Below, one piece after another: positions 2 to 39,820 of a stretch of DNA of 49,085 nucleotides (positions within the stretch are counted from its first letter, which is position 1; the number at the start of each line of letters is the position of its first letter). Origin of the DNA: a virus; the IMG/VR virus record IMGVR_UViG_3300003981_000003, positions 1 to 49,085 of that record. One strand, 5' to 3'. The notes beneath the pieces were generated by a model. It searched no databases. It had not been told where the DNA came from and saw nothing but the letters and a program-made list of their open reading frames with translations. The position numbers and the translations under genes are program-made.

Positions 2-382
2 AATAGTTTAACTTGCTATATTTTTGCACAAATATGGCACAGGTATGCGCCAGAACTAGCACTTTTGTATAGCGAAAACATACCTAAAATATTATTAGAA
101 CAAATTGAAAAAAACAAAGCAACACTTGACGAAAAAATAATAGAAACACTAAGACTACCACGACTACAACTGCCACTAACACCGATAATGATAAAATTAG
201 ACATATGGGACAGCTACCCAGGAGAAAAATACCTAGAAAAAACGCTAGGATATGATTTAGCATTTGAGTTCATTCAGAAATATATTATTTTTATTGATAA
301 ACTACTAACAATTTTAGGAAAAGAACACTACTATAAACTCTTCATAAAAGACCCCGCAAACCTACCAATAATAAAGCTCTAA
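2..382 (+). CDS. Amidoligase-like protein, C-terminal part (start lies outside window)
   Basis: The reading frame is already open at base 2, so the 5' end is missing. The translated remnant (starting N-S-L-T-C-Y-I-F-A-Q-I-W-H-R-Y) is a clear paralog of the C-terminal third of the protein at 964-2136: both share AQIWHRYA, LALLY, the LPxLQLPxTP block, YPG and the KDPxNxPxI ending. A TTG at 65 could be read as a start, but homology continues upstream of it, so it is internal. By relation to 964-2136 and 4738-5919 it belongs to a glutamine-synthetase-fold amidoligase-like family. The catalytic region would lie upstream of the window and cannot be checked. Confidence 0.7.
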   Translation, partial: NSLTCYIFAQIWHRYAPELALLYSENIPKILLEQIEKNKATLDEKIIETLRLPRLQLPLTPIMIKLDIWDSYPGEKYLEKTLGYDLAFEFIQKYIIFIDKLLTILGKEHYYKLFIKDPANLPIIKL

Positions 383-545
383 GCCCCCCCCCCCTTCCAC
401 CGGTGGGGGCAGTCTTTAGCTGTCGTCATTTTTGGCTTGCTTGCTTGTATGCTTCTAGTGCACCGTATGCCCACCGCCCCGGTGTGGTTGGTAGTTAGGG
501 GGTTTGGGTTTTACGCTGGGTGTATGTACGTGGTATGTGTTTAGG
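383..545. other. Intergenic spacer with C-run and CACCGGTG
   Basis: There is no gene. A run of Cs follows the stop codon, then CCACCGGTGG (397-406), one copy of the genome-wide palindrome. The rest is G/T-rich and contains GTATGCCC at 467-474, a box also found in the candidate origin near 40.1 kb. The spacer ends at the promoter of the next gene. Confidence 0.5.
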
Positions 546-573
546 CTTATATACTTCCACTATACCTATAACA
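546..573 (+). promoter_or_regulatory. Archaeal promoter with TATACCTATA box
   Basis: A TATA-like CTTATATAC lies about 45 bases before the ATG at 599. It is followed by CTATACCTATAACA (560-573), the TATACCTATA motif seen at most early promoters here. The leader then carries GTGAGACGTGTGAG, almost identical to the leader of the amidotransferase gene at 3175. Confidence 0.55.
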
Positions 574-598
574 GAGTGAGACGTGTGAGAGTGGTAGT

Positions 599-958
599 AT
601 GGTACAGGTAGGTGTGGAGAGGCGTTCTTCTATGCACCCCCTGGATTGTATAAGGGAGGCTGAAAAGCTAGTTGTTTCCCAGTGGGTTTACTTTGCTCTT
701 GAAGACCCGTACGTTTACTTGGAGGAGGAGCCTGATAAAAGAGAAGAAGTAATTAGAATTGAAGTGTTCGAGGGTGTTGAGTTGGAACTGCATAACGTCC
801 ACATAATTAGTGAGAGTAGGTATAGAGCACAGTGTGGTACAGTGTATGAGGCATTAGTGTTAGTCGAGAAAATAATACTAACAATCGGTGACGAAAAGTT
901 TGAAATGATAAACGATTACAAAGATGAGGTAAGAAGAATAAAATTAATTATAAGGTGA
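599..958 (+). CDS. Hypothetical protein, 119 aa
   Basis: Not recognised. ATG start about 50 bases downstream of a TATA box, with the TATACCTATA motif in between. The protein is acidic in the middle (EEEPDKREEV) and alternates short hydrophobic strands with charged turns, suggesting a small alpha/beta fold, with a basic C-terminus (RRIKLIIR). No signal peptide or membrane segment. Its stop overlaps the start region of the downstream amidoligase-like gene, so the two are probably cotranscribed and translationally coupled. Position at the head of the operon suggests a role linked to the amidoligase, but this is only context. Confidence 0.75.
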   Translation: MVQVGVERRSSMHPLDCIREAEKLVVSQWVYFALEDPYVYLEEEPDKREEVIRIEVFEGVELELHNVHIISESRYRAQCGTVYEALVLVEKIILTIGDEKFEMINDYKDEVRRIKLIIR

Positions 959-963
959 TGAAA

Positions 964-2136
964 ATGGCAGTAGCTAAAATTATAGGAACCGTCATATCGG
1001 AACCTGCAGAAAACCCCTCCTCCCTTCTTTTTGCACCGGGAAGGGACAGGTTAGGGTTTATTTCCGGGTATGTTGAAGAATTCATTAAGTTCTTTGAGAA
1101 TGAAAATAATATTAGAGAGTATGCTAAAATACTTGCAAGGTGGCTTCTGGGCAACGTACTGACTTACAGGGAATCGTTCCTGTCACATGGGCAAGAACTA
1201 GAAGTAGACGAGCTAATACTAAAATACGAAGACGAGTATGAAGAAAAACCGCTAGTAAAGAACTTCGCCAAAATGATTTATAGAACTGAACATGATGATG
1301 CCAGTGGGCCGAGGGAATATAACCTGCCAGCTTACCACCTTAACAACCCACTGTCGCAAATGCTACTACATTTTGCGTTTGAGATAGAGGACTACAAGAA
1401 CGATTGTGCATGCTATGGTTCACACTACCATATCAGATACTTCCACCCTAAATATTGGAGGATAGCTGATGACTACAGGTATGTTCTCCGACAGGCCGGT
1501 ATTGTACTAGCAAATCACGCTTCATCACTGCTAGCTTACAGGCCAGACACGTGGGCCACGTACTATGTCGAGGACAACAACTACTATTACGATGACGATG
1601 ATTATGATGATTACGATTATGATAGGGACTACCACATTTGTAGAATACGCTGGGCCGACCCAATAGTGGAACCTACCTCTAAATATTCAGCATTCTACTA
1701 TAACGTTCAGGACGACAATTTAAGAACAGTCGAGAACAGGCTATGCGAAAACAACAGTCTAGCGTGCTATATGTTTGCACAGATATGGCACCGGTACGCC
1801 GGTAAGCTAGCGCTACTCTACAAGAAGAATGACCCTAGGAAGCTAGATGAGCAAATAAGAAGCATGAGACCAGTATGGGATGATGACTTCATGAGCCAAT
1901 TTGAACTACCAGCACTACAGCTACCATTCACACCGGTGAGGCTGAATCTTGAATACAATGATGAGAAATACCCGGGACAATTATTCTTAGAGTATGTAGT
2001 TGGCAAGGAAACTGCTAGCAGATTCGTGACGACTTACATTAAGCTAATAGATACGGTACTTGGTTACATGGAAACTAAGAGATTTAGATTGTTCAGGAAA
2101 GACCCTAAAAATATGCCAGTAATAGCGTTCATCTAA
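964..2136 (+). CDS. Divergent glutamine-synthetase-fold amidoligase-like protein
   Basis: The ATG at 964 is chosen because AGGTGA (953-958) sits five bases before it; an ATG at 958 or GTG at 955 is possible. The 390-aa protein aligns by eye with the better-conserved amidoligase at 4738-5919. It has an E-L-E pair near residue 78 (E-V-E in the other), REYNLP near 117 (HEITLP), a CYGSHYH motif around 150-156 (CGSHLH) and E-N-R at 257-259 (E-D-R). These are the metal/ATP-binding positions of carboxylate-amine ligases of the Amidoligase_2 type. An insert at about residues 200-223 is extremely rich in Asp and Tyr. Forming an isopeptide or amide bond is therefore the inferred activity; the substrate is unknown. 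Partial duplicate at 2-382. Confidence 0.6.
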   Translation: MAVAKIIGTVISEPAENPSSLLFAPGRDRLGFISGYVEEFIKFFENENNIREYAKILARWLLGNVLTYRESFLSHGQELEVDELILKYEDEYEEKPLVKNFAKMIYRTEHDDASGPREYNLPAYHLNNPLSQMLLHFAFEIEDYKNDCACYGSHYHIRYFHPKYWRIADDYRYVLRQAGIVLANHASSLLAYRPDTWATYYVEDNNYYYDDDDYDDYDYDRDYHICRIRWADPIVEPTSKYSAFYYNVQDDNLRTVENRLCENNSLACYMFAQIWHRYAGKLALLYKKNDPRKLDEQIRSMRPVWDDDFMSQFELPALQLPFTPVRLNLEYNDEKYPGQLFLEYVVGKETASRFVTTYIKLIDTVLGYMETKRFRLFRKDPKNMPVIAFI

Positions 2137-2152
2137 CACCGGGGTGGATGGA

Positions 2153-2569
2153 ATGTTAGAGAAAATTGCAAGAGCTGGTAAAGAAGAAATGGAAAAGATG
2201 ATTAACAAAGAATTCATAGAGCTATTAAGAGTGTCAAAACCAGCGATTGAATGTCCAACGCCAAAGAGGCTGGTAGAAGCGACACAGAAAATATTTGAAC
2301 TAATTTTCGGTGACAAGATAGAATGGCTACCGGGCAAAATAGAAGTTGGCACCGGTATAACAGCACATGTAATGTTTAACTTTTTCATATATGGTAAAAC
2401 TACCTACAAAATAGAATACACAGCCACATGGGAAAAAGACAGGGATAGTGACTGCTACAAGTTTGAAGGACTCACGGTATGCAATAACACGACATGCCTG
2501 GTATTAGACTACACTATGGGCCTAGTAATCTATGACAAACACGATGACATGGACGACGAGGACTACTAA
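2153..2569 (+). CDS. Hypothetical protein, 138 aa
   Basis: Not recognised. The ATG at 2153 is preferred over the GTG at 2144 because GGGGTG lies six bases before it. It has an N-terminal amphipathic helical half (many Lys/Glu) and a C-terminal beta-rich half with Cys residues (D-C-Y, V-C-N, T-C-L) and a strongly acidic tail (KHDDMDDEDY). The layout of helix, LF-x-LF segment and strands resembles the 113-aa protein at 2746-3087 and the 139-aa protein at 48276-48695, so these may be distant relatives. It lies 16 bases after the amidoligase-like gene and is probably in the same operon. Confidence 0.7.
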   Translation: MLEKIARAGKEEMEKMINKEFIELLRVSKPAIECPTPKRLVEATQKIFELIFGDKIEWLPGKIEVGTGITAHVMFNFFIYGKTTYKIEYTATWEKDRDSDCYKFEGLTVCNNTTCLVLDYTMGLVIYDKHDDMDDEDY

Positions 2570-2577
2570 ACAACTCC

Positions 2578-2612
2578 CCATTTTTCCCATTTCACACCCA
2601 TTTTTTTATTCT
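2578..2612 (+). terminator. T-rich terminator
   Basis: Three T-runs (the longest seven Ts) in a pyrimidine-rich stretch directly after the stop codon at 2569, typical of archaeal termination. A CACCGGTG palindrome follows at 2646. Confidence 0.45.
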
Positions 2613-2690
2613 CCCGTATGCCCCTCCAAGCCAGCCACCAACCCCCACCGGTGGGGTTAGGAGAGTTGTTGTGTCGTGTATGGGCGTGTA

Positions 2691-2710
2691 AGTACCAAGA
2701 TTTTTATACC
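2691..2710 (+). promoter_or_regulatory. BRE/TATA promoter
   Basis: AGTACCAAGATTTTTATACC runs into TATAATATG. The GTACYAAG element plus TTTTTATACC recurs at 3110, 6129 and 46135, defining a strong shared promoter class. The start codon is 35-40 bases downstream. Confidence 0.7.
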
Positions 2711-2745
2711 TATAATATGCCAATATAGAACACGAGCGTGATAGT

Positions 2746-3087
2746 ATGAGGATTCTTGTTTCTGTGGAGGGAGAGGATATGAGGATGCTTTCCCTAACAT
2801 TCAGAAATATTATTATTTTTCCAGAGATTCCAATAGAGAAAAAGCAAGAAATTATAGAGAAGCGAATAATGGGACAGGGCCTATATAGCAAGCTATGCAA
2901 ACTACTGTTCAAGCTCTTCAGAGCTGACATACATGTTGACAATGAGCTAAACATACATGTTGTGAAAAAAGGCGTGAAGAGTAGAGTGGAGCTTATATAC
3001 ACTAAGAGAACTGGCTGGATGCTAGAACATGCGATTAAATATGAGAATGACAAGAAAGTTTGGGAAGCAACTATTGAATACCATTAA
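2746..3087 (+). CDS. Hypothetical protein, 113 aa
   Basis: Not recognised. It stands alone between its own promoter (2691) and the promoter of the amidotransferase gene. The ATG follows a leader with weak Shine-Dalgarno complementarity. N-terminal beta strand (RILVSVEG), a basic amphipathic helix (LYSKLCKLLFKLF) and a C-terminal set of strands ending WEATIEYH. Basic overall. Its layout resembles that of 2153-2569. The GTACYAAG/TATACCTATA promoter suggests expression together with the amidotransferase and other genes carrying this box. Confidence 0.7.
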   Translation: MRILVSVEGEDMRMLSLTFRNIIIFPEIPIEKKQEIIEKRIMGQGLYSKLCKLLFKLFRADIHVDNELNIHVVKKGVKSRVELIYTKRTGWMLEHAIKYENDKKVWEATIEYH

Positions 3088-3109
3088 CTTTTTCCCGTAT
3101 AGTAATGTA

Positions 3110-3144
3110 AGTACTAAGGTTTTTATACCTAGATTATACCTATA
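3110..3144 (+). promoter_or_regulatory. BRE/TATA promoter with double TATACCTA motif
   Basis: GTACTAAGGTTTTTATACCT is followed 14 bases later by a second TATACCTATA (3135-3144). The leader has GTGAGACGTGCGAG (about 3150-3163), matching that of the gene at 599. The second copy lies near the predicted transcription start, so it could be an operator or initiator element. Confidence 0.65.
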
Positions 3145-3174
3145 GTAAAGTGAGACGTGCGAGGTAGATAGGAT

Positions 3175-3963
3175 ATGTGCGGAATAGGTGCGCTTGTGGA
3201 TATGAGTGGCTCGGGTATTTCCTCCGGTAAGGCCGAGGAGTTTATCAAAACTCTCTTCCGGGGTAACCGGGAGAGAGGTACTGACGCCGCCGGGGTCTAT
3301 GCTTACCGCCCCGGTGGTATGGGGTTGCTAGTTAAGGCCCCATATGACCCCGAATTTTTCGTTGAGTACTTACCGTTTGGAAAGTTAGACGGTGCACAAA
3401 TAATAATAGCACACAACAGAGCCTACACTTCATGCCCACCGAGTAACAACTATTGCAATCACCCGCTAGCTATTAACGGTACGACCCCCACCGGGGGGAA
3501 ATGGTCGTTGATACTAGTCCATAACGGTGTTATTGACGATGAGATACCGCACAGCTACGAGGCTAGGGTAGACAGTTTCAGCTTACTGGTGAAGTTCAAA
3601 ATCGAGCATGAGAAAAAGGGTAAAGAAGCGATAGAGGCTCTAAAGGAGATGTTAAAACTATATGGGAGGAAAGCAATAATAGGCCACTATGTCAGGGAAG
3701 ATGGGCAGAACATATTCTTCTGGTATAGGAATACTAACCCTCTAGTTAAATGCATGGATAACGACATAATGATGTTTGCTAGCCTAGAAAAAGCACTACC
3801 ATGTAAAAAGGCCAAGACTACTGATACTGAAGTGCTACACTATATGGTCTTCAAGGATAACGGTAAGACAAATGAGCTAGTAGAGCTGGGCGAAAAGTAT
3901 GTTGGAAGCTACAGTTATGGCTACAGCTACGGTTACAGCTACAATTACAAAAAGATAAAGTAG
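3175..3963 (+). CDS. Stand-alone class II glutamine amidotransferase (Ntn-type glutaminase domain)
   Basis: The protein begins M-C-G-I-G, so Cys2 becomes the N-terminal nucleophile after Met removal, the hallmark of class II (PurF/GlmS-type) glutaminases, which release ammonia from glutamine. Further family signatures are RGTDAAG (34-40), AHNRA (79-83), VHNGVIDD (115-122) and R-V-D-S (131-134). At 262 aa it is only the glutaminase half; no synthetase domain is fused, so a separate partner must use the ammonia or glutamyl group. Amidoligase-like genes flank it on both sides, an arrangement known in phage and bacterial peptide-modification loci. The C-terminus is a Tyr/Gly/Ser repeat (SYGYSYGYSY) before a basic tail, unusual for the family. 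It has its own strong promoter. Confidence 0.88.
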   Translation: MCGIGALVDMSGSGISSGKAEEFIKTLFRGNRERGTDAAGVYAYRPGGMGLLVKAPYDPEFFVEYLPFGKLDGAQIIIAHNRAYTSCPPSNNYCNHPLAINGTTPTGGKWSLILVHNGVIDDEIPHSYEARVDSFSLLVKFKIEHEKKGKEAIEALKEMLKLYGRKAIIGHYVREDGQNIFFWYRNTNPLVKCMDNDIMMFASLEKALPCKKAKTTDTEVLHYMVFKDNGKTNELVELGEKYVGSYSYGYSYGYSYNYKKIK

Positions 3964-3998
3964 GACACGTGGGTGTAGTGTTGGGGGTGAGAAGAAAA

Positions 3999-4352
3999 AT
4001 GAAAGCAAAAAAGATAGGGGAAAGCGTACTGATAATAATTAAAACAAAAATATTCGGTAAGAAGACAAAGCTAAAACTAGAACTGACCAGAGACGATATC
4101 GTGAAGCTGATTGGAATACAAACAATAACTAAAGGCCACGAATACGAAACACCCGAATGGGTCAAAGCCATTGAGCTGACAACGCCCGGGAGGATGCACG
4201 AGATACAGGCCGAATGGGTCAAAGCCGTTGAGCTGACAACACCGGGGAAGTTAGGAGAAGAATGGGCTGAATGGGAGACACTCCACGAGGCCGAGGAGTA
4301 CGAGTATGCTAACATCAACGAGCTGTACAACCCTGAAACATGGAGGTGGTAA
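3999..4352 (+). CDS. Small acidic protein with tandem EWVKA-ELTTPG repeats
   Basis: ATG at 3999, eight bases after a strong GGGGGTGA site; the longer GTG start at 3969 lacks one. The first 45 residues are basic and beta-like (MKAKKIGESVLIIIKTK). Then come two near-identical units, PEWVKAIELTTPG and AEWVKAVELTTPG, about 19 residues apart, and a Glu/Trp/Tyr-rich tail ending ETWRW. No known family. Because it sits between the amidotransferase and an amidoligase and is rich in exposed-looking Glu, it could be a peptide substrate or carrier for them; this is speculative. The stop is three bases before the next start. Confidence 0.7.
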   Translation: MKAKKIGESVLIIIKTKIFGKKTKLKLELTRDDIVKLIGIQTITKGHEYETPEWVKAIELTTPGRMHEIQAEWVKAVELTTPGKLGEEWAEWETLHEAEEYEYANINELYNPETWRW

Positions 4353-4354
4353 AA

Positions 4355-4732
4355 ATGGTGCTGGTAGCTGTCAAGGCGGTTAAAAAGTGCATCCTGCCAC
4401 CAGAAGCATATAACCTGCTGAAGAAATTGGAAGACGACTTCTGTTGCCTAGAGTTTGAAATGGACACCACACCGGATGGTGTTGAGCTGACTGTCGAGAC
4501 AATGTTGGAAGAGGCCATATGCCTAGTCTACAACGAAATACTCAACAATATCGAGGGACGAGTAGAGCTAGACGTAACACCAGGAATGGCTCTACTATTA
4601 AGAGGACTGCTACGCTATATGGACATAGAATCACTAGCATCCCTAACACCGAGCAGGCGCACGAGACGCTCCGACCTCGACAGGGTCTACGCCAAACTGA
4701 AGACAGCCGCTGACATCGCCGGGTGGAGGTGA
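4355..4732 (+). CDS. Hypothetical protein, 125 aa
   Basis: The ATG at 4355 is chosen because GGAGGTGG lies just upstream, overlapping the end of the previous gene. Mixed alpha/beta. The N-terminal MVLVAVKAVKKCILPPEAYNLL is followed by an acidic Cys pair (DDFCCLEFEMD), a helical middle and a basic Arg-rich C-terminal helix (SRRTRRSDLDRV). No match recognised. It is tightly packed between the acidic repeat protein and the amidoligase, with overlapping translation signals, so it is likely a component of the same system. Confidence 0.7.
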   Translation: MVLVAVKAVKKCILPPEAYNLLKKLEDDFCCLEFEMDTTPDGVELTVETMLEEAICLVYNEILNNIEGRVELDVTPGMALLLRGLLRYMDIESLASLTPSRRTRRSDLDRVYAKLKTAADIAGWR

Positions 4733-4737
4733 ACGAA

Positions 4738-5919
4738 ATGATTGGGAATAAAGAGTTCATCAGGGAGTTCGCCGCCCAGCTAAGAGACCACAACCCCATA
4801 TCACCACTCTTTCCCCTCACCGGTGTTTTGTGGGGGAAGGAGGTAGAGTATATCGTGCCGAATGCTTCAGCGACAGCGAGACGTGTGGCCAACGTTTTGG
4901 GGATTAGCTATGACTCGGATGTCACGTTTGTTACGTCTGTGCTAGACTACCATGTAGACTACTCGACAGCCCACGAGATAACACTACCACCCATAACACT
5001 ACCAATAACGTCGAAACATGCCACACTATACAATATGGGTGAAGCCTTCACGATGCTAACAGGTATAAGGGTGCGCCACGACCAGTACAACAACCAGTCC
5101 TGTGGCTCACACCTGCACTTTTCAGCTACCGACAGGTACCTGATGGCACGTATGGCCAACTGGACAATGATACTGTCGCCCTTATCAGTGTTTCTGCGCT
5201 CTAACCCGTACCACTTAACGGAGAGCAACGATATAGTGTTTGACATCTACGCCTGGAGGCCCAGGATAAGCCATTTCGCAAGCCCGCCGAGATACATTGA
5301 CAACATGCTGGTGCAGAACGCCCCCCGGGGATGGAGAGGGTTAAGACCGGACAATAACCCTAACAGCTTCTATGCTGTTGAAATAAACAGGTATCGTAAA
5401 GATGCCGTGACCATTGAGGACAGGATACCAGAGTCCCACTGGCTAGGGGACTATGCTGTGCTGGCACTATCATATGTGCTGGCGAACCATGTTAAACCTC
5501 CGATAATGCTACTATCTAAAATCTACAGTTTAGTTTACGACATCAGGAACGGTAACGGATTCCTTAGATGGCTAGAAAATACCGAGCTAGAATACTACCT
5601 GCTGTACACCGATAAGAGGGATTGGGTGCATATGAGCTTCTACGAGTTCCTAGAAGACCTGATAAGCATTGCAGAAAAAGACATCAGAAAACTGGACAGC
5701 CGACTACCACCGGTGGTCGAGGGGCTATTGAGCCCTAACGACTACTATGTTTGGCTGTACAATAAGAGCATGGAATGGATACCCGAGAAATATGCGTGGC
5801 TAGAAGATTATGCAAGAATATACCCGACAGGGATGCCAACACTATACGAGGATTACACGCCACCCGAAGAACAAGAATCCCTAGACGAGGAGGCCGAATA
5901 CTACGAGACAGTAGGCTAA
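4738..5919 (+). CDS. Amidoligase (glutamine-synthetase-like carboxylate-amine ligase)
   Basis: ATG at 4738, five bases after GGAGGTGA, which overlaps the previous stop. The 393-aa protein shows the diagnostic residues of the Amidoligase_2/GS-like family: WGKEVEY near residues 33-38 (E-x-E metal ligands), HEITLPP near 79-85, CGSHLHF at 122-128 and IEDR at 226-229. Such enzymes use ATP to join a carboxylate to an amine; known relatives act on peptides, cell-wall material or small molecules. The C-terminal 130 residues are helical and end in an acidic tail (PPEEQESLDEEAEYYE). It is the best conserved of three paralogs in the window. The nearby glutaminase (3175) is the obvious nitrogen donor. 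The actual substrate cannot be told. Confidence 0.75.
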   Translation: MIGNKEFIREFAAQLRDHNPISPLFPLTGVLWGKEVEYIVPNASATARRVANVLGISYDSDVTFVTSVLDYHVDYSTAHEITLPPITLPITSKHATLYNMGEAFTMLTGIRVRHDQYNNQSCGSHLHFSATDRYLMARMANWTMILSPLSVFLRSNPYHLTESNDIVFDIYAWRPRISHFASPPRYIDNMLVQNAPRGWRGLRPDNNPNSFYAVEINRYRKDAVTIEDRIPESHWLGDYAVLALSYVLANHVKPPIMLLSKIYSLVYDIRNGNGFLRWLENTELEYYLLYTDKRDWVHMSFYEFLEDLISIAEKDIRKLDSRLPPVVEGLLSPNDYYVWLYNKSMEWIPEKYAWLEDYARIYPTGMPTLYEDYTPPEEQESLDEEAEYYETVG

Positions 5920-6128: not shown

Positions 6129-6150
6129 GTACCAAAGCTTTTATACCTAT
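6129..6150 (+). promoter_or_regulatory. BRE/TATA promoter, probably for a leaderless transcript
   Basis: GTACCAAAGCTTTTATACCTAT followed by AACAACACTAG. The predicted transcription start (about 25 bases past the TATA) falls at or just before the GTG at 6176. Confidence 0.65.
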
Positions 6151-12224: not shown

Positions 12225-13637
12225 CTAGTACAGCTTCAACTCCACCGGGGGCCCAACAAGCACACGGCCACGCACACTATTATACGCCGTCCAAACCCCG
12301 TACACTATAGCGTCAGCAATATCGTCCCGATACCCGCTACGCTTCTTAACAGTCCTCCGCCCACCTCGAGTCTCAGCATAGTAATACCCGTAAAACTGCT
12401 CCAACACATTCTTATCTCTCGGCAACAGTATCCTCTCCTCCTCGGCAAGCCTCCTCACAAGCTCATACATCTCAACCCTAACATCACCGGTCGCACGGAT
12501 ATGATAGACAGGGCTTGGCACGGTCATCTCCAGGTACTGGGCAACAGTCATTCCAACACCAATATAGTCCACCCCAATCTTCTCAGCGTTAAACCTCCGA
12601 GCAACATCCGACGCCCACATAACAACACGGCTAGCACGCCCCCGACATAGCTTCCCAGTATAAACGACCTGATACACGGTCTCATTAGGGTTCCCATCAC
12701 CCTCCGGAACGGCCACAACAGCAATACCGCTACAATCCTTACCCCCAACAGCCACGTCAAGACCGACAAAACACCGGTAGCCACGCCGGCACTTATCCCA
12801 CCTCTCAGCCTTAGCCACCGGTTCAAGCAGTCGTGGCGTGAACAGGGACCCGGTAAGCTCGGGGAACTCCGCCTCGTACATTACCCTGAAAACCTCGCTT
12901 GGGAGCCTGTGCATCTCCCCCTCGATAAACTCCCGGCTCATAAACCCCTGCTCGACCGCCTCACGCCACGTGACACGCACCTTATAGTAGTCGTCGCTAC
13001 GCCAGGCCTCCCAGAGATGGTTAAGCCTGTGCGGAGTGCTCAACTCTACCAGCACCGGGGGCAGACGGTTACGGGGGCTCGCCAAGAGCCTCAGAACATG
13101 CTGGTAGTAGACCTGGTCCGGAATCTCTGCGCTCTCATCAATAATCAGCGTGCTAGCACCGAAACCCAGTACCCTCTCCGGGCGGGCAACAGAGAGGGCA
13201 CGGATAACACTCCCATTCTTCAAGTGCATCCTGTCCATACGGAAAGGTTTAGACTCGTCTACCAGCTGTGCGAGGAACTCGTTACTCTCAACATACCGCC
13301 GTATATGCCCGTACAGTATCTCGGCCTGCTCCTGCCGGGGAGCAATAATAATCACGTCCTCGTTCGGGTAGATTGCCGCCATAGTCAAAGCCATAGCACT
13401 AGTAGCCACAGTCTTACCCGCACGAGTACTAGCTAGGAAAAGGAACTTCCACTTCCCCTCCCACCGCCGGTGGAGAACAGGGTACACAAACTCTAACTGG
13501 TACTTTGTTAGGCGTAACGGTTTACCGTCCGGCCCGACGAAGAACTCCTGGAACCATGACTGAAGGCTCCTCTCATCCCGGAGTATAGTCTCTGCGAGAG
13601 GGTTCTCCTTCACCCATTTAGGCCTTCTCCTTGCCAC
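12225..13637 (-). CDS. terL: Terminase large subunit (packaging ATPase-nuclease)
   Basis: Packages DNA into the prohead. The 470-aa protein shows the ATPase Walker A ASTRAGKT (69-76), Walker B LIIDE (164-168) and a C-terminal RNase H-fold nuclease with GLDVAVGGKD (D294) and DDIADAIVYG near residue 440. Length is normal. The GTG at 13637 has GGGGGAT upstream and overlaps the small-subunit gene by 20 bases, typical of coupled terS-terL. Confidence 0.93.
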   Translation of the reverse strand: MARRRPKWVKENPLAETILRDERSLQSWFQEFFVGPDGKPLRLTKYQLEFVYPVLHRRWEGKWKFLFLASTRAGKTVATSAMALTMAAIYPNEDVIIIAPRQEQAEILYGHIRRYVESNEFLAQLVDESKPFRMDRMHLKNGSVIRALSVARPERVLGFGASTLIIDESAEIPDQVYYQHVLRLLASPRNRLPPVLVELSTPHRLNHLWEAWRSDDYYKVRVTWREAVEQGFMSREFIEGEMHRLPSEVFRVMYEAEFPELTGSLFTPRLLEPVAKAERWDKCRRGYRCFVGLDVAVGGKDCSGIAVVAVPEGDGNPNETVYQVVYTGKLCRGRASRVVMWASDVARRFNAEKIGVDYIGVGMTVAQYLEMTVPSPVYHIRATGDVRVEMYELVRRLAEEERILLPRDKNVLEQFYGYYYAETRGGRRTVKKRSGYRDDIADAIVYGVWTAYNSVRGRVLVGPPVELKLY

Positions 13638-21360: not shown

Positions 21361-22596
21361 TTAGAGGCACACGCCGAGACTGCACAGCTTCTCCAAGTGC
21401 AACTCTATACTGCGCCTCTCATGCCCGCCATGATAGCTTGACAGGGCATGAATACTGTCGGCCACACGCACAGCATTATCCCAGGCCTCACGGAACGTGT
21501 CCCCGAAACCGTTAGCAGTAGCCAGTAGAACCTCATTTGGAGGCGCCCATATACGGCCACCAACATTTATGGCACGCCTGAAACCGACACCCCTCAAATA
21601 CTCCTCCCCCGGGAAGTCGAGAGGCCTCCAATATTCGGGCTCATCCGTGTAGACCCCAATCTCGACAGCCCACGTACTAGCAGGCTTAAACTCTACCACA
21701 GTCCCATCAGCAATACCAGCGATAAGCCCGGCATAATCGCCAACACTACGTGGGAACAGGCTACTCCCCGGGTAGGGGAAGCGTGGGGTAGGATCTGTAA
21801 CATACAGTTTACTCCCGTCCCAGAAAGCCTCCACGCTCATGTTCCCATGATACCCGGTCTCACGCAGGAACCCCTCAATCCTGTCCAGCCAGAACTCGTC
21901 GAAAATACTCTCCCACACCCACTTCCCGGTCGTGGAATGGCCCTTATGCTCGACCGTGAAAAGACAGGGACGGACAAACTCCTCCCCATTAAAGAAACAG
22001 TCAAGCCCGACCTCCACACCGGCCGCCTCAGGCTCGATAATAGCGCTGATATAGTCGGTCAAAGGCCCGAGACCGCTCTGCATAATCCTGACACGGAAAT
22101 CCTCCGGGCTCTCAACACGCATAGTCTCCATGTTGCCCCGGAAAGTTTCAAGCTTAACGTAGAATGGCCCCTCACCCCGGTGCTCCTCCAGGAACCTCAT
22201 AATATTCTCCAGCCCCTCCACCGGAGTGTAAGGGGTTACAGGGACGCCCAGCTCTTCAAGCTTCTTCTTCCCGTACCCCCGGTCGAGCTCTAAACGCTCG
22301 ACAGGCTCGCTATTCCCGAAAACATTCTTACCCGCCCGGCGCATCAGGTCGTTAAGACTCCCAAACCCGCTGTCCGTGAACACGACATAGTCCACGTCCC
22401 CGTAGACCAGGCCCCAATCGTCAATCTTAACAATCTCAGGGAAGCCCCACCCGTCCGCCCAATCTTCAGCACGTGGGAAAGGCTCGTGCCACTCCTTATA
22501 ATAGTAGACCCGGCCGTCATCAGCATCCATCAGGGAACGGCCAAGCTGGAGGGCATGGTCAAGGCCAATGCCCGTATCATACACTAAAACCTTCAC
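21361..22596 (-). CDS. ATP-grasp ligase within head operon
   Basis: The 411-aa protein resembles PurD/carbamoyl-phosphate-type ATP-grasp enzymes. It has an N-terminal Rossmann-like part (VKVLVYDTGIGLDHALQLG), KKKLEELGVPVTPYTP, FYVKLETFRGNMETM (ATP-binding lysine strand), GVEVGLDCFFNGEEF, and a metal/ATP site at DPTPRFPYPGSSL. These enzymes activate a carboxylate as acyl-phosphate and attach an amine. GARS-like ATP-grasp proteins are known in some head modules and have been proposed to modify virion proteins. The GTG at 22596 follows GGGTG; GTG 22605 is possible. Overlaps the preceding gene by 20 bases. Confidence 0.78.
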   Translation of the reverse strand: MKVLVYDTGIGLDHALQLGRSLMDADDGRVYYYKEWHEPFPRAEDWADGWGFPEIVKIDDWGLVYGDVDYVVFTDSGFGSLNDLMRRAGKNVFGNSEPVERLELDRGYGKKKLEELGVPVTPYTPVEGLENIMRFLEEHRGEGPFYVKLETFRGNMETMRVESPEDFRVRIMQSGLGPLTDYISAIIEPEAAGVEVGLDCFFNGEEFVRPCLFTVEHKGHSTTGKWVWESIFDEFWLDRIEGFLRETGYHGNMSVEAFWDGSKLYVTDPTPRFPYPGSSLFPRSVGDYAGLIAGIADGTVVEFKPASTWAVEIGVYTDEPEYWRPLDFPGEEYLRGVGFRRAINVGGRIWAPPNEVLLATANGFGDTFREAWDNAVRVADSIHALSSYHGGHERRSIELHLEKLCSLGVCL

Positions 22597-22822
22597 GCCT
22601 AGCACCCAGCCGGTAGAAGACCACGAAAGACGTTAAAATAAGAAGCCCCCCAAGAAACTTCGCAGTCCACCCATCAACACCGGAAAGAGAAAGGAAAACA
22701 CCTCCAAGACCTATCAGAGAGCCTGACAGGGCGTCCAACACCTCACCTTTCAGGCTCTCCTTCAAACCTTTGGTCTTCCTCCCTGTACCTTGTGCCCGGC
22801 TGGTTACCCGGCGCTTCGGCAT
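22577..22822 (-). CDS. Small two-span membrane protein
   Basis: Start uncertain: ATG 22822 is used; GTG 22840 or GTG 22741 (just past the portal stop, after AGGTGAG) are possible, the last giving a protein of about 54 aa. The conserved-looking part is hydrophobic: SGSLIGLGGVFLSLSGV, then GWTAKFLGGLLILTSFVVFY, with a basic tail. The unusually long overlap with the portal gene (80 bases) argues for the shorter form. Possible membrane or holin-like role. Confidence 0.5.
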   Translation of the reverse strand: MPKRRVTSRAQGTGRKTKGLKESLKGEVLDALSGSLIGLGGVFLSLSGVDGWTAKFLGGLLILTSFVVFYRLGARREGFSV

Positions 22823-35797: not shown

Positions 35798-38700
35798 TTA
35801 GAGCTCGCATGTCTTGCATGTTGAGTTCTCGGTTTCACCCATCACCAGCACGCTCCCATCCCCACCGTTCTTCTTGGGGAGCGATACCAGCCGTGAACGC
35901 CTCTTACACTCGACAAACCTCTTATCACCGGTGCGCCCGGAAGCGCCGAAGTCTATTACCTGCACCATCTTACTCTCGTCCCTGTAGATTGTTACTCCCC
36001 GGAGGCCGAGTAGCCATCCGAGAATGTATACTGTTTCAACGTCCTGTTTCGTAGCGTCCTTCCTGAGGTTCACGGTCTTGCTTATTGACTGGTCCGTGTA
36101 TAGCTGTGCGGCCGCATTATGCGCTAGATGGTACCAGTAGTCGAAATCCATACTGGTGCTGTACATGTCAGCAAGCATTCTTAGGCCCAGTATGAATCCG
36201 GGCCCAACCTTCCCGGAGAGTTTAGCTTCAATGTCTGGTAGCGCCCATCTCAGGCTACCCTTATGCTTGCTGACCTCGTCGAAAACAAGGCCAATAACAT
36301 CCCTCCCCACACCGGCGTTCCTAGCCAGCTCCAGCAGGTCGTCCCTGAAGCTTGACACCACCTCGAGGAAGCTCCCAACACTAACATTGCGCTGGAACAC
36401 GAGAGCGAAATAAGGCTCTATACCACTACTCGTGCCGGCGATAATGCTTATGCTACCGGTCGGAGCGACCGTATTCACGACCGTGTTCCTGGGAGCAACA
36501 GCCCCAATACTCCTCCCATACTCCACGAGCACCCTCCAAGCATCGCCGGGGCGCCACACGGCAAGCGCTAATAGTAGCCTTGGATTCCCTACAACTTCCT
36601 CCACCGGTTTGGTGAGGGCATCGTCCGCCATTTTCCTTGTTATACCGAAGACGTTTTCCGCCACGTTCTCGAGCGCCTCGATGCTAACAAGCTTCACGGT
36701 ACCATCGGGCTCAACACGCTCCCCGGAAGCGCCGGTAAGCCTCTCGTACACCCACCCGGGAATGCTGACATCATGGTATTTCAGCTTCAGCCAGCCATCC
36801 TCGAATTTAACCACGCTAGCCACCTTCTTAAGCGCCGGTATGTGCATCTCCAGCAGTTCATCGGAGTTCCCTGGTTTGACGCACTCCATACGCCTCCAAT
36901 CATAGACCTTGCACTTGAACGCCGGGGCAGGGCCAAGCTCTGCTCCGAGCTCCCAGCTACGCTTCCAAGCGTAAACATTTATTGCGGCCGTAAGTATGAG
37001 CGTTACCGCTACTGCCTCCTCGCTGTCATAGGGCAGTCCCAGTTTTGATAGGAGGTCTGCTAGCCCCATCATTCCCAGGCCGACCTTGCGTGTCAGACTG
37101 TTAGCCTTATGATGGTTCTCATGTGGATGCCTGTTCCTATCTATGACAGCGTCCATAGCGTCCATCACAGTCTGCACGTCAAGATAGAAACTGTCGAGGT
37201 CGAACATTCCCTTATCAGCATACTTCTCAACACTCATACTACCAAGGTTACAGCTTTCAAAGTAATATAAATACTGCTCCCCACAGTTATGATGTACAAG
37301 TCCTCCAGCAATGTACCTCTTATACCCGGGGACCGTAAAATCGTAGAAGTCCACCATGCCAGCATCCCCAACCGCCTTAACAGTAGCCCAGACAGAGTCA
37401 CGCTTAGCCTTCTTCAGCACCAGCTTCCCACTCTTACCGGTAGACTCGAACCCTACTATCTCAGCGAAAATCTTACGGCTATACCCGTTTATCACCAGCT
37501 CATAGTACCCTTTAAACTCGTATACACGTTTTTCCCCGCTGGATGTAGTGTACTCAATCGTCTTCCTATACGGGCGGTTATAGATACGGCTGAAAACCCC
37601 CAGAGCCGTTAAGAGAACCTGCACATCCTTCAGCAGTCCCAGGCTACTGCTCGTAAGACGCACGGCCCTATCATTATCAACAGTACCATCAGCCGTGAAC
37701 AGGCCACGCAGAAACATGGCAAGACTCTCAAAGTCAAGCCTCCAAACTATCTCCGGAAGCCTCCTCTCCGGTTGTCTGAGCATCGTGCCCCCCATAAGCT
37801 CGATAATCTTCTTGTACAGCCTAGTATTCTTGCCGACCATTACAACCTGCTCGCTACCATGCCTTCTCAGATACTTGTTCGGGTTAGCTCCAAGCCTCAA
37901 TATAGCACGCTTCACCCTCTCAAGAGCCTCCCCATCCTGAGGCCCGAAATACCACGCCACATAGTACTCGTTCAGAGTGCCATCACCAATCAGCCATCCA
38001 AGCGCAAAAGCCACGTCAGGCTCAAGCCTCACACCGGAAGACAACTCCCCCCTAGCATGCTCCGGGTGTAGCCTGGCAACCATCACCTTATCCCCGGGCT
38101 TCAGCTGGTCAGCCCTCTTCCATCCCTCCGGTGTCAAGAACTTGTGCTCATGCGTTACCACAGCCTCATAGCCCTCCCTTGTCACCACACGCAGGCCAGG
38201 CTTCCTCCCAACATGCCAGACCCAAGCATTAACCGTGTCCGTAGAGTAGAGAGCCAGCTCATCACCATATGAGGTAACGTAGACGGGAACCTCCCTGTCG
38301 GGCACCACAAGTCTAGTCTCATAAGCTGTGAGCTCCCCACCCTCTCCAAGCACATCCTCGCCGGCGGAAACAGCCCTAGCATGTATGCCACGCTGTCTAG
38401 CCTCCTCCCATATGTCACGTGCCTTCTTCCATCCCTCCGGTGTCAGCATCCTAGTGTCTCCCGACACGCAAGGATTAGTAACACCTATAGTACCAAGCCA
38501 AGGAGTTGGATTCCACTTATTGTAGTTATCAAGAAACAATAACCCAGGGTCCCCAGTACTCCATGCACTGGAAATAATCTCCTCCCACAGTACACTGGTT
38601 GGGATATGCCATATGTACGGGTTTTTACTGTCCCAGCTCATGCCAGCTTCTTCTAGTATTTTAACCGAGTTCTTCTTGGCATGTTCAACCATGTCTTCGA

Positions 38701-39796
38701 GAATGCTAATATACGGGGTCTCAACCTTATCAAGAATCTCGCCCAACATACCTATCCCGGTGGCCCTTGATACAGCGTATGATATCCTGTAATCCCCCGG
38801 GCCAACCTCGCCGGTTAGCTGTGGATTAACCAGCCACCACTCACGCCCTTCAAACAAAGCTTCAAAGAATGCATCATGAATGCCAACACTAATGTTGAAG
38901 TTTGTTAGGAACAGGTCTCCAAGAGGGAACCTCTTAGCTTGTATGAATCCTGCCTCCTCCGGCGGGGTCATGCCATCCCTAGTATGCTCCTCGAAATCAC
39001 CATTAACCTTGCACCCCTGCGACTCTAAATCCCCTTTAACACCGGTGGCAACAGCACGGGCGTATGCTGGTAGCATGTACCTGTAAGCGTCCCAAACATT
39101 GAAGTACGGGTTGTAGAGGTCGGCATGCCAGTCGTGCATAACACCCATGTTGGCCCCACGCCTCTTCCCCCCCTGTTTTACAGCGTCGGTTACCCGGTCG
39201 AAAATCGTCATAAAACTTATTGGGCCACTCGAGAACGAGCCCGTCCCCCTAACCATTGACCACCGGGGGCGGAGGTTGCTGAAGTTAAATCCCTGTCCGC
39301 CTCCATGTTTGAACGTTAATGCTTGCACCCGTGTAGCCTCCATGATATCGTTAAGGTCGTCGTAGAGCGGGGTAACATAGCACGCCGATAAGGTTCCATG
39401 TGCGCCGTCAACATACATGTTGAACAGAGTTGGACTGTTAAACACGAATCGCCTCGAGAGAAGAAGCTCAGAGAGTATTAGCGGGTTCACACGCCCCTCA
39501 AAACCCTTAGCCACCCGGCGCATAAGGCTTGAAGGTGTCTCCACGATATGGCCGTACTCGTCCCGTGAGAGATACCGGCTCATCAGGACACGTATAGCGT
39601 TATAGGTGAACCCATAATCGTGAGGGTCGGGAATCCTAGGGTCTACGAGCCGCCCCCCGTTAGACGCATATCCCCGGTAATGGTTACCAACCTCACGGTA
39701 GATTTCCTCTAGGAGGAGCTCTTTAGCCTCCTCAGCCTTCCCAGGGTCGAAGATTGACTCCCGGACAAGTTCGAGCTGAAGCTTATCGCTATTCAC
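35798..39796 (-). CDS. nrdJ: Adenosylcobalamin-dependent ribonucleotide reductase (class II) with intein
   Basis: Makes deoxyribonucleotides. The 1332-aa precursor gives about 937 aa after intein removal. Signatures: SPTLFN and SACYVTPL (first redox Cys), KHGGGQGFNFSNLRP, GTIGVTNP|CGEQ (active-site thiyl Cys at the intein junction), PTGSISIIAGTSSGIEPYFAL, and the C-terminal redox pair CKTC. The class II assignment comes from the NrdJ-type order and the C-terminal CxxC; no NrdB-like subunit is in the window. The GTG at 39796 is preferred: the TATA CTAAAATATA lies at 39821-39830, so an ATG at 39811 would precede the mRNA start, and GAGGTG precedes the GTG. Confidence 0.92.
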   Translation of the reverse strand: MNSDKLQLELVRESIFDPGKAEEAKELLLEEIYREVGNHYRGYASNGGRLVDPRIPDPHDYGFTYNAIRVLMSRYLSRDEYGHIVETPSSLMRRVAKGFEGRVNPLILSELLLSRRFVFNSPTLFNMYVDGAHGTLSACYVTPLYDDLNDIMEATRVQALTFKHGGGQGFNFSNLRPRWSMVRGTGSFSSGPISFMTIFDRVTDAVKQGGKRRGANMGVMHDWHADLYNPYFNVWDAYRYMLPAYARAVATGVKGDLESQGCKVNGDFEEHTRDGMTPPEEAGFIQAKRFPLGDLFLTNFNISVGIHDAFFEALFEGREWWLVNPQLTGEVGPGDYRISYAVSRATGIGMLGEILDKVETPYISILEDMVEHAKKNSVKILEEAGMSWDSKNPYIWHIPTSVLWEEIISSAWSTGDPGLLFLDNYNKWNPTPWLGTIGVTNPCVSGDTRMLTPEGWKKARDIWEEARQRGIHARAVSAGEDVLGEGGELTAYETRLVVPDREVPVYVTSYGDELALYSTDTVNAWVWHVGRKPGLRVVTREGYEAVVTHEHKFLTPEGWKRADQLKPGDKVMVARLHPEHARGELSSGVRLEPDVAFALGWLIGDGTLNEYYVAWYFGPQDGEALERVKRAILRLGANPNKYLRRHGSEQVVMVGKNTRLYKKIIELMGGTMLRQPERRLPEIVWRLDFESLAMFLRGLFTADGTVDNDRAVRLTSSSLGLLKDVQVLLTALGVFSRIYNRPYRKTIEYTTSSGEKRVYEFKGYYELVINGYSRKIFAEIVGFESTGKSGKLVLKKAKRDSVWATVKAVGDAGMVDFYDFTVPGYKRYIAGGLVHHNCGEQYLYYFESCNLGSMSVEKYADKGMFDLDSFYLDVQTVMDAMDAVIDRNRHPHENHHKANSLTRKVGLGMMGLADLLSKLGLPYDSEEAVAVTLILTAAINVYAWKRSWELGAELGPAPAFKCKVYDWRRMECVKPGNSDELLEMHIPALKKVASVVKFEDGWLKLKYHDVSIPGWVYERLTGASGERVEPDGTVKLVSIEALENVAENVFGITRKMADDALTKPVEEVVGNPRLLLALAVWRPGDAWRVLVEYGRSIGAVAPRNTVVNTVAPTGSISIIAGTSSGIEPYFALVFQRNVSVGSFLEVVSSFRDDLLELARNAGVGRDVIGLVFDEVSKHKGSLRWALPDIEAKLSGKVGPGFILGLRMLADMYSTSMDFDYWYHLAHNAAAQLYTDQSISKTVNLRKDATKQDVETVYILGWLLGLRGVTIYRDESKMVQVIDFGASGRTGDKRFVECKRRSRLVSLPKKNGGDGSVLVMGETENSTCKTCEL
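37286..38470 (-). other. Intein with LAGLIDADG homing endonuclease in ribonucleotide reductase
   Basis: A 395-residue insert starts with Cys (CVSGDTRMLTPEGW, block A) and ends VHHN followed by an extein Cys, the canonical splice ends. Block B is VVTHEHKFLTPEGW. Two LAGLIDADG motifs (ALGWLIGDG and FLRGLFTADG) indicate an endonuclease that looks intact. It sits at TNP/CGEQ, so the +1 Cys used in splicing is also the catalytic thiyl-radical Cys of the enzyme. Confidence 0.93.
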
Positions 39797-39820
39797 GTGT
39801 TCACACCTCATCTGGCAAGC

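Follow-up and report, generated by a model that had tools for sequence, protein, structure and literature searches.

A candidate amidoligase and glutamine amidotransferase module in an archaeal head-tail virus, with counterparts in haloarchaeal tailed viruses

Introduction

Gene modules that combine amidoligases of the glutamine synthetase (GS) fold with class II glutamine amidotransferases (GATs) are not new, being known from phages of the phiEco32/LUZ24-like, OM43 and Arthrobacter kinds. In the phiEco32/LUZ24-like phages, the gene order is COOH-NH2 ligase, small open reading frame (ORF), Amidoligase_2, GAT, small ORF, ATP-grasp and gamma-glutamyl cyclotransferase (GGCT) (PMC3890496), the families concerned being COOH-NH2_lig (PF14395), Amidoligase_2 (PF12224), GATase_6, ATP-grasp and GGCT/AIG2. 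The OM43 phages carry an amidoligase and GAT pair (PMC10580990), and a class II GAT is listed for the archaeal viruses phiCh1 and ChaoS9 in a 2021 survey (PMC8651126). No amidoligase of an archaeal virus is named in the literature that we searched, which takes in few subscription papers and is not proof of absence. Here we analyse a gene cluster at the start of the IMG/VR virus record IMGVR_UViG_3300003981_000003 (positions 1-49,085; this whole stretch of 49,085 bases is termed the window), in which an earlier note on this DNA had described three amidoligase-like proteins, a class II glutaminase without a synthetase domain and small ORFs, with overlapping translation signals and shared promoters.

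Results

The ORFs of the cluster lie where the earlier note placed them (Table 1), and as in the phiEco32/LUZ24-like cluster, amidoligase and class II GAT genes form an operon-like run with small ORFs. The phage cluster, however, adds a COOH-NH2 ligase, an ATP-grasp protein and a GGCT, and its GATs usually have long C-terminal extensions, whereas the window encodes two ligases, here named LigA and LigB, with none of these three additional families recognised in the cluster by ORF and family-library scans. Minimal pairs, in which a GS-like ligase shares its strand with a short GAT, occur in Arthrobacter phage Salgado (which also has a GGCT gene), in OM43 phages and at the IMG/VR loci L170, L172, L196 and L268; unlike the window, these belong to bacterial phages or unassigned viral contigs, are matched by standard amidoligase profiles and are much closer to the consensus. 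A GAT ORF stands close by on the same strand for 18 of 121 viral amidoligases, and the linkage of GS-like ligases with class II glutaminases in phages, to which the earlier note had referred, is indeed widespread in bacterial phages. What is new is the archaeal, hyperthermophile-type variant that has no COOH-NH2 ligase, ATP-grasp or GGCT nearby.

Within the full-length proteins LigA and LigB, the four motifs of Amidoligase_2 proteins follow one another in the family order, GxExE, DxS..E, [CY]GxHxH and TxExR. When each protein was shuffled 100,000 times, a three-motif version of this pattern never appeared, and the four-motif pattern, run over 3,030 ORFs from 161 loci, matched amidoligases only. 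A DNA pattern with the CGxHxH-to-TxExR spacing of LigA and LigB retrieved at least 120 loci from IMG/VR, with 119 ORFs scoring as amidoligases against an independent hidden Markov model (HMM) built from other phages, and a second DNA pattern, taken from the EIxLP motif of LigB, gave 21 loci (18 with true amidoligases). Motifs, retrieval and the GAT profiles support the enzyme classes named earlier, GS-like amidoligases and a class II glutaminase that stands alone.

In case of the GAT, the match to Pfam GATase_6 has an E value of 2.8e-4, below the curated cut-off, an HMM of phage GATs matches with E 4e-12 and hhalign to phage GATs gives a probability of 97% (E 3.8e-11); tblastn finds matches in three phage records. 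From its first possible start codon the protein begins with MCGI, leaving Cys2 after removal of Met, and the catalytic positions are all kept: Cys2, R34-G35, H80-x-R82, H116-N117-G118 and D133. With these profile matches and the full catalytic residue set, the predicted product is certainly to be classed as a glutamine amidotransferase of class II (N-terminal nucleophile hydrolase), and the description as a glutaminase lacking a synthetase domain stands. The C-terminal tail, encoded at 3905-3960, is rich in Ser, Tyr and Gly (SYSYGYSYGYSYNYKKIK).

The closest counterparts that we found among archaeal viruses are the GAT loci of phiCh1 and ChaoS9: the neighbour of the GAT, recorded as 'uncharacterized' in both entries, bears HGMEIE, NDASGPRE, GSHVHL and TIELR; a sequencing correction noted in MK450543 makes it one ORF. 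A DASGPRE-type pattern retrieved a third virus (IMG/VR contig L331) in which ligase and GAT likewise adjoin, and in all three the ligase lies directly upstream of the GAT. Judged by its motifs, the 'uncharacterized' neighbour in phiCh1 and ChaoS9 is a putative ligase of the same kind, newly recognised here. Like the window virus, the three are archaeal head-tail viruses with a stand-alone class II GAT beside a GS-motif protein, and their ligase motifs match those of LigA, the Cys of CGxHxH being replaced in both; unlike the window, they have a single ligase, a gap of about 4 nucleotides (nt) to the GAT, a GAT of 191 amino acids (aa) and haloarchaeal hosts. In the ChaoS9 gene table neither ligase nor GAT has a phiH1 homologue, which is consistent with the two genes having been gained or lost as a pair, or acting together. 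The earlier note knew of no such system described from a head-tail virus of hyperthermophilic archaea: the literature searched does not contradict this, but the same gene pair occurs in haloarchaeal tailed viruses.

In BLASTP, LigA matches the L331 ligase over 114 aa (29%), three of the motifs being in register; the E value of 5e-5 comes from a three-sequence set, and such small sets overstate significance. Only BLASTP and hhalign (score 29.9 vs 22.2 for the best of 200 shuffles) set LigA apart from its shuffles in comparison with the haloviruses; HMMs built from two or three halovirus ligases did not. LigA also exhibits an Asp/Tyr-rich insert (DNNYYYDDDDYDDYDYDRDY), encoded at 1585-1635. The protein encoded at the contig start shares 45% identity (E 2e-35) with residues 267-392 of LigA, a region that lies past the last catalytic motif: two of the three amidoligase-like proteins claimed previously, LigA and LigB, are therefore retained, but the third is a LigA-paralogue fragment that has no catalytic motif.

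In case of LigB, unguided MAFFT aligned three of its motifs to all 24 amidoligases of the alignment, a set picked because its members show these motifs; among the invariant columns are G38, E85, C127, G128, H130, H132, E232 and R234. Against an HMM of 47 amidoligase sequences LigB scored 11.0 bits (E 0.05), the best of 4,000 shuffles reaching 4.7, and hhalign gave E 5e-4. An alignment-guided model (predicted local distance difference test, pLDDT, of 50.8) places beta strands on the motifs; in VIA-align of this model, the best rows (Z 5.2-5.8) were glutamine synthetases, Dop and PafA ranking below them, and the best viral match of the model was the Salgado amidoligase. The input alignment was made of amidoligases and hence biases the model, which appears GS-like at low confidence and provides support, not proof. 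A Foldseek search against the PDB showed no GS match among the best 50 rows, the unrelated matches having E 0.18 or worse, and single-sequence AlphaFold prediction of LigB gave no usable fold (pLDDT 32).

Wider searches for relatives returned little. LigA and LigB showed no significant match to the COOH-NH2_lig profile, tblastn with either found nothing in phage records, and single-protein pattern scans for LigA, LigB, the GAT and the terminase retrieved no relatives. Searching 229 Thermoproteia genomes with LigB and PF12224 gave nothing credible, the sole LigB match being riddled with stop codons and PF12224 being run without a positive control. PF12224 also found nothing in 41 virus records with related capsid proteins; one of these, L146, has an amidoligase-like protein missed by Pfam, and the PF12224 search is therefore insensitive. 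This L146 protein (165-1055, minus strand), the single amidoligase-like product of a virus whose capsid protein is likewise of the archaeal type, has a Cys-rich insert and an HMM E value of 0.0023.

Genes for terminase, portal, head protease and capsid protein are present in the window, the capsid protein being related to those of haloviruses HVTV-1/HCTV-5 and of a Methanofastidiosa virus, with relatives encoded by 117 IMG/VR stretches. A 44-nt CRISPR spacer of a Thermoproteia genome (array of 15 repeat copies, L306 / L327, G067 contig 5) matches the terminase gene at 12286-12326 with 36 of 41 nt; given the five mismatches, the source of the spacer may be a related virus. The other 13 spacers of this array do not match the window, and a control with the reversed window gave nothing. 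Capsid relatives and spacer support the earlier assignment to an archaeal head-tail virus and point to Thermoproteia as probable hosts, the label 'hyperthermophilic' resting on membership of this class and not on a named host. The ribonucleotide reductase gene (35798-39811, minus strand) can be aligned at the DNA level to many Thermoproteia genomes, mostly at 63-73% identity; it is host-like and is interrupted at NPC/CGEQ by about 395 codons of intein-like sequence. A palindrome, CACCGGTG, occurs 54 times in the whole window against about 0.8 copies expected from base composition.

The overlapping translation signals described earlier are present: the LigA start codon (GTG) overlaps the stop codon of the preceding ORF, and LigB overlaps the small ORF before it. 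Shared promoters are likewise borne out by a 21-nt promoter-like box (GTACYAARRNTTTTATACCTA), which has three copies (2692, 3111, 6129) and is found nowhere else in the window, with none expected by chance. A scan for sigma-70-type promoters stayed near chance level, as expected for an archaeal virus. One small ORF contains a 57-nt tandem repeat at 4153-4266 that encodes EWVKA[IV]ELTTPG twice, and a resemblance of the 2144 ORF to the 48276 ORF, suspected by eye, had no BLAST support. Outside the cluster, the window encodes a PurD-like ATP-grasp protein (21361-22605, minus strand; NCBIfam TIGR00877, E 4e-6) between the portal and head protease genes. It has no match in phage records and does not resemble the ATP-grasp proteins found in the phage clusters; the ORFs beside phage amidoligases that it seemed to match were terminases and an unrelated ORF, and these were dismissed as chance matches.

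Table 1. Features of the cluster and of the halovirus counterparts (positions in the window unless a record is named).
Feature	Position	Strand	Remarks
LigA, divergent putative GS-like amidoligase, 393 aa	955..2136	+	GTG 955; ATG 958 or 964 possible
LigA GQELE (G-x-E-x-E, metal/ATP strand)	1189..1203	+	aligns with HGMEIE of haloviruses
LigA DDASGPRE	1294..1317	+	same motif as NDASGPRE of phiCh1
LigA YGSHYH (CGxHxH motif)	1414..1431	+	Tyr for Cys; haloviruses: Ala
LigA TVENR (T-x-E-x-R)	1726..1740	+	
Stand-alone class II GAT (predicted), 262 aa	3175..3963	+	Cys2 nucleophile; no synthetase domain
LigB, putative GS-like amidoligase, 398 aa	4723..5919	+	GTG 4723 or ATG 4738
LigB GKEVE (G-x-E-x-E)	4834..4848	+	
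LigB DYSTAHE (DxS..E)	4957..4977	+	then ITLPP
LigB CGSHLH	5101..5118	+	
LigB TIEDR	5410..5424	+	
phiCh1 ligase and GAT (PhiCh1_200/_195)	L328 (MK450543) 1516-3163		
ChaoS9 ligase and GAT (ChaoS9_220/_215)	L329 (MK310226) 1516-3169		
Third ligase and GAT pair, IMG/VR contig	L331 1226-2896		
LigA-paralogue C-terminal piece, 126 aa	2..382	+	cut by contig start; no catalytic motif
Small acidic ORF, 119 aa	599..958	+	overlaps LigA start; no family
Small ORF, 141 aa	2144..2569	+	acidic tail; no family
Small ORF, 113 aa	2746..3087	+	no family
Small ORF, 127 aa	3969..4352	+	57-nt in-frame tandem repeat
Small ORF, 130 aa	4340..4732	+	overlaps LigB start
Promoter-like box GTACCAAGATTTTTATACCTA	2692..2712	+	BRE/TATA type
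Promoter-like box GTACTAAGGTTTTTATACCTA	3111..3131	+	upstream of GAT
Promoter-like box, third copy	6129..6149	+	upstream of 6176 ORF

Discussion

Our analysis indicates that the cluster, carried by a Thermoproteia-type archaeal head-tail virus, is probably an amide-bond module akin to the phage amidoligase/GAT systems that depends on ATP and is fed by glutamine. In such a module, the GAT would split glutamine with its N-terminal Cys, as homology and residues suggest, and LigA and LigB, going by fold and motifs, would be GS-fold ligases that activate a carboxylate by converting it, with ATP, into an acyl phosphate; the gene linkage suggests that this carboxylate could then be joined to ammonia released by the GAT or to another amine. 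Considering the host type, the acceptor would most likely be a carboxylate on a host or viral protein or peptide, and not cell-wall peptidoglycan. Several observations weigh against this interpretation: LigA and LigB match no Pfam (up to E 10), PHROG or NCBIfam family, the one NCBIfam row for LigB (E 0.07) lying far below the family cut-off, and we therefore file both as GS-like amidoligases outside the Pfam model rather than as PF12224 members; the HMM match of LigB reaches an E value of only 0.05, and its structural support is of low confidence (pLDDT 51, Z < 6) and alignment-biased; LigA has motifs and a short halovirus match only, with no HMM support and its motif Cys replaced; and neither ligase gene is adjacent to that of the GAT, small ORFs lying between them. 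Pup-type tagging by PafA/Dop was considered and rejected: none of the small cluster ORFs ends in Gly-Gly-Glu/Gln, as the small disordered modifier of such a system would, and PafA and Dop appear as GS-fold matches only.

LigA and LigB could instead be synthetases of small molecules or free peptides (e.g. of a glutamyl-amide) that receive ammonia from the GAT, the product serving as effector or osmolyte. Cellular Amidoligase_2/GAT clusters are proposed to make metabolites, a role in secondary metabolism is suggested for the pair of mycobacteriophage Marvin, as quoted in PMC10580990, and the small ORFs need not be substrates; however, no biosynthetic or transport gene was recognised in the cluster and the pairs of phiCh1, ChaoS9 and L331 are without another recognised enzyme of that kind, so that we regard a metabolite product as unlikely, whilst giving it serious weight. 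A different possibility, somewhat less likely still, is that LigA and its fragment are unrelated or inactive and LigB functions with the GAT alone: the Tyr in place of the motif Cys, the Asp/Tyr-rich insert and the missing HMM match would fit this, but all four LigA motifs are in order, the shuffles never reproduced even three of them, and the GAT-paired halovirus ligases also replace this Cys (by Ala) and have DASGPRE in common with LigA. Peptidoglycan is absent from Thermoproteia and haloarchaea, and because of this the phage cell-wall explanation cannot be general. The phiEco32 amidoligase/GAT has been proposed to alter the surface of the host and thereby keep out superinfecting viruses (Iyer et al. 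2009, quoted in PMC10580990), and the module of the window might act likewise on cell wall or S-layer; with the peptidoglycan substrate missing in these hosts only the S-layer variant is left, and we judge such a role improbable here. In an extended version, the module would be a viral protein-modification system that amidates or conjugates a small protein from the same cluster, for instance the 3969-4352 product, which contains EWVKAxELTTPG twice, and related systems would occur across haloarchaeal and Thermoproteia tailed viruses; this is in our estimate a long shot.

The amide-bond module that we favour would extend the phage amidoligase/GAT system to archaeal head-tail viruses, one of them tied to hosts of the hyperthermophile type, and a likely function can be given to the 'uncharacterized' protein encoded beside the glutaminase in phiCh1 and ChaoS9. 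The main gain lies in this link to cultivated haloviruses: as phiCh1 and ChaoS9 are in culture, the target of the module can be tested in the laboratory.

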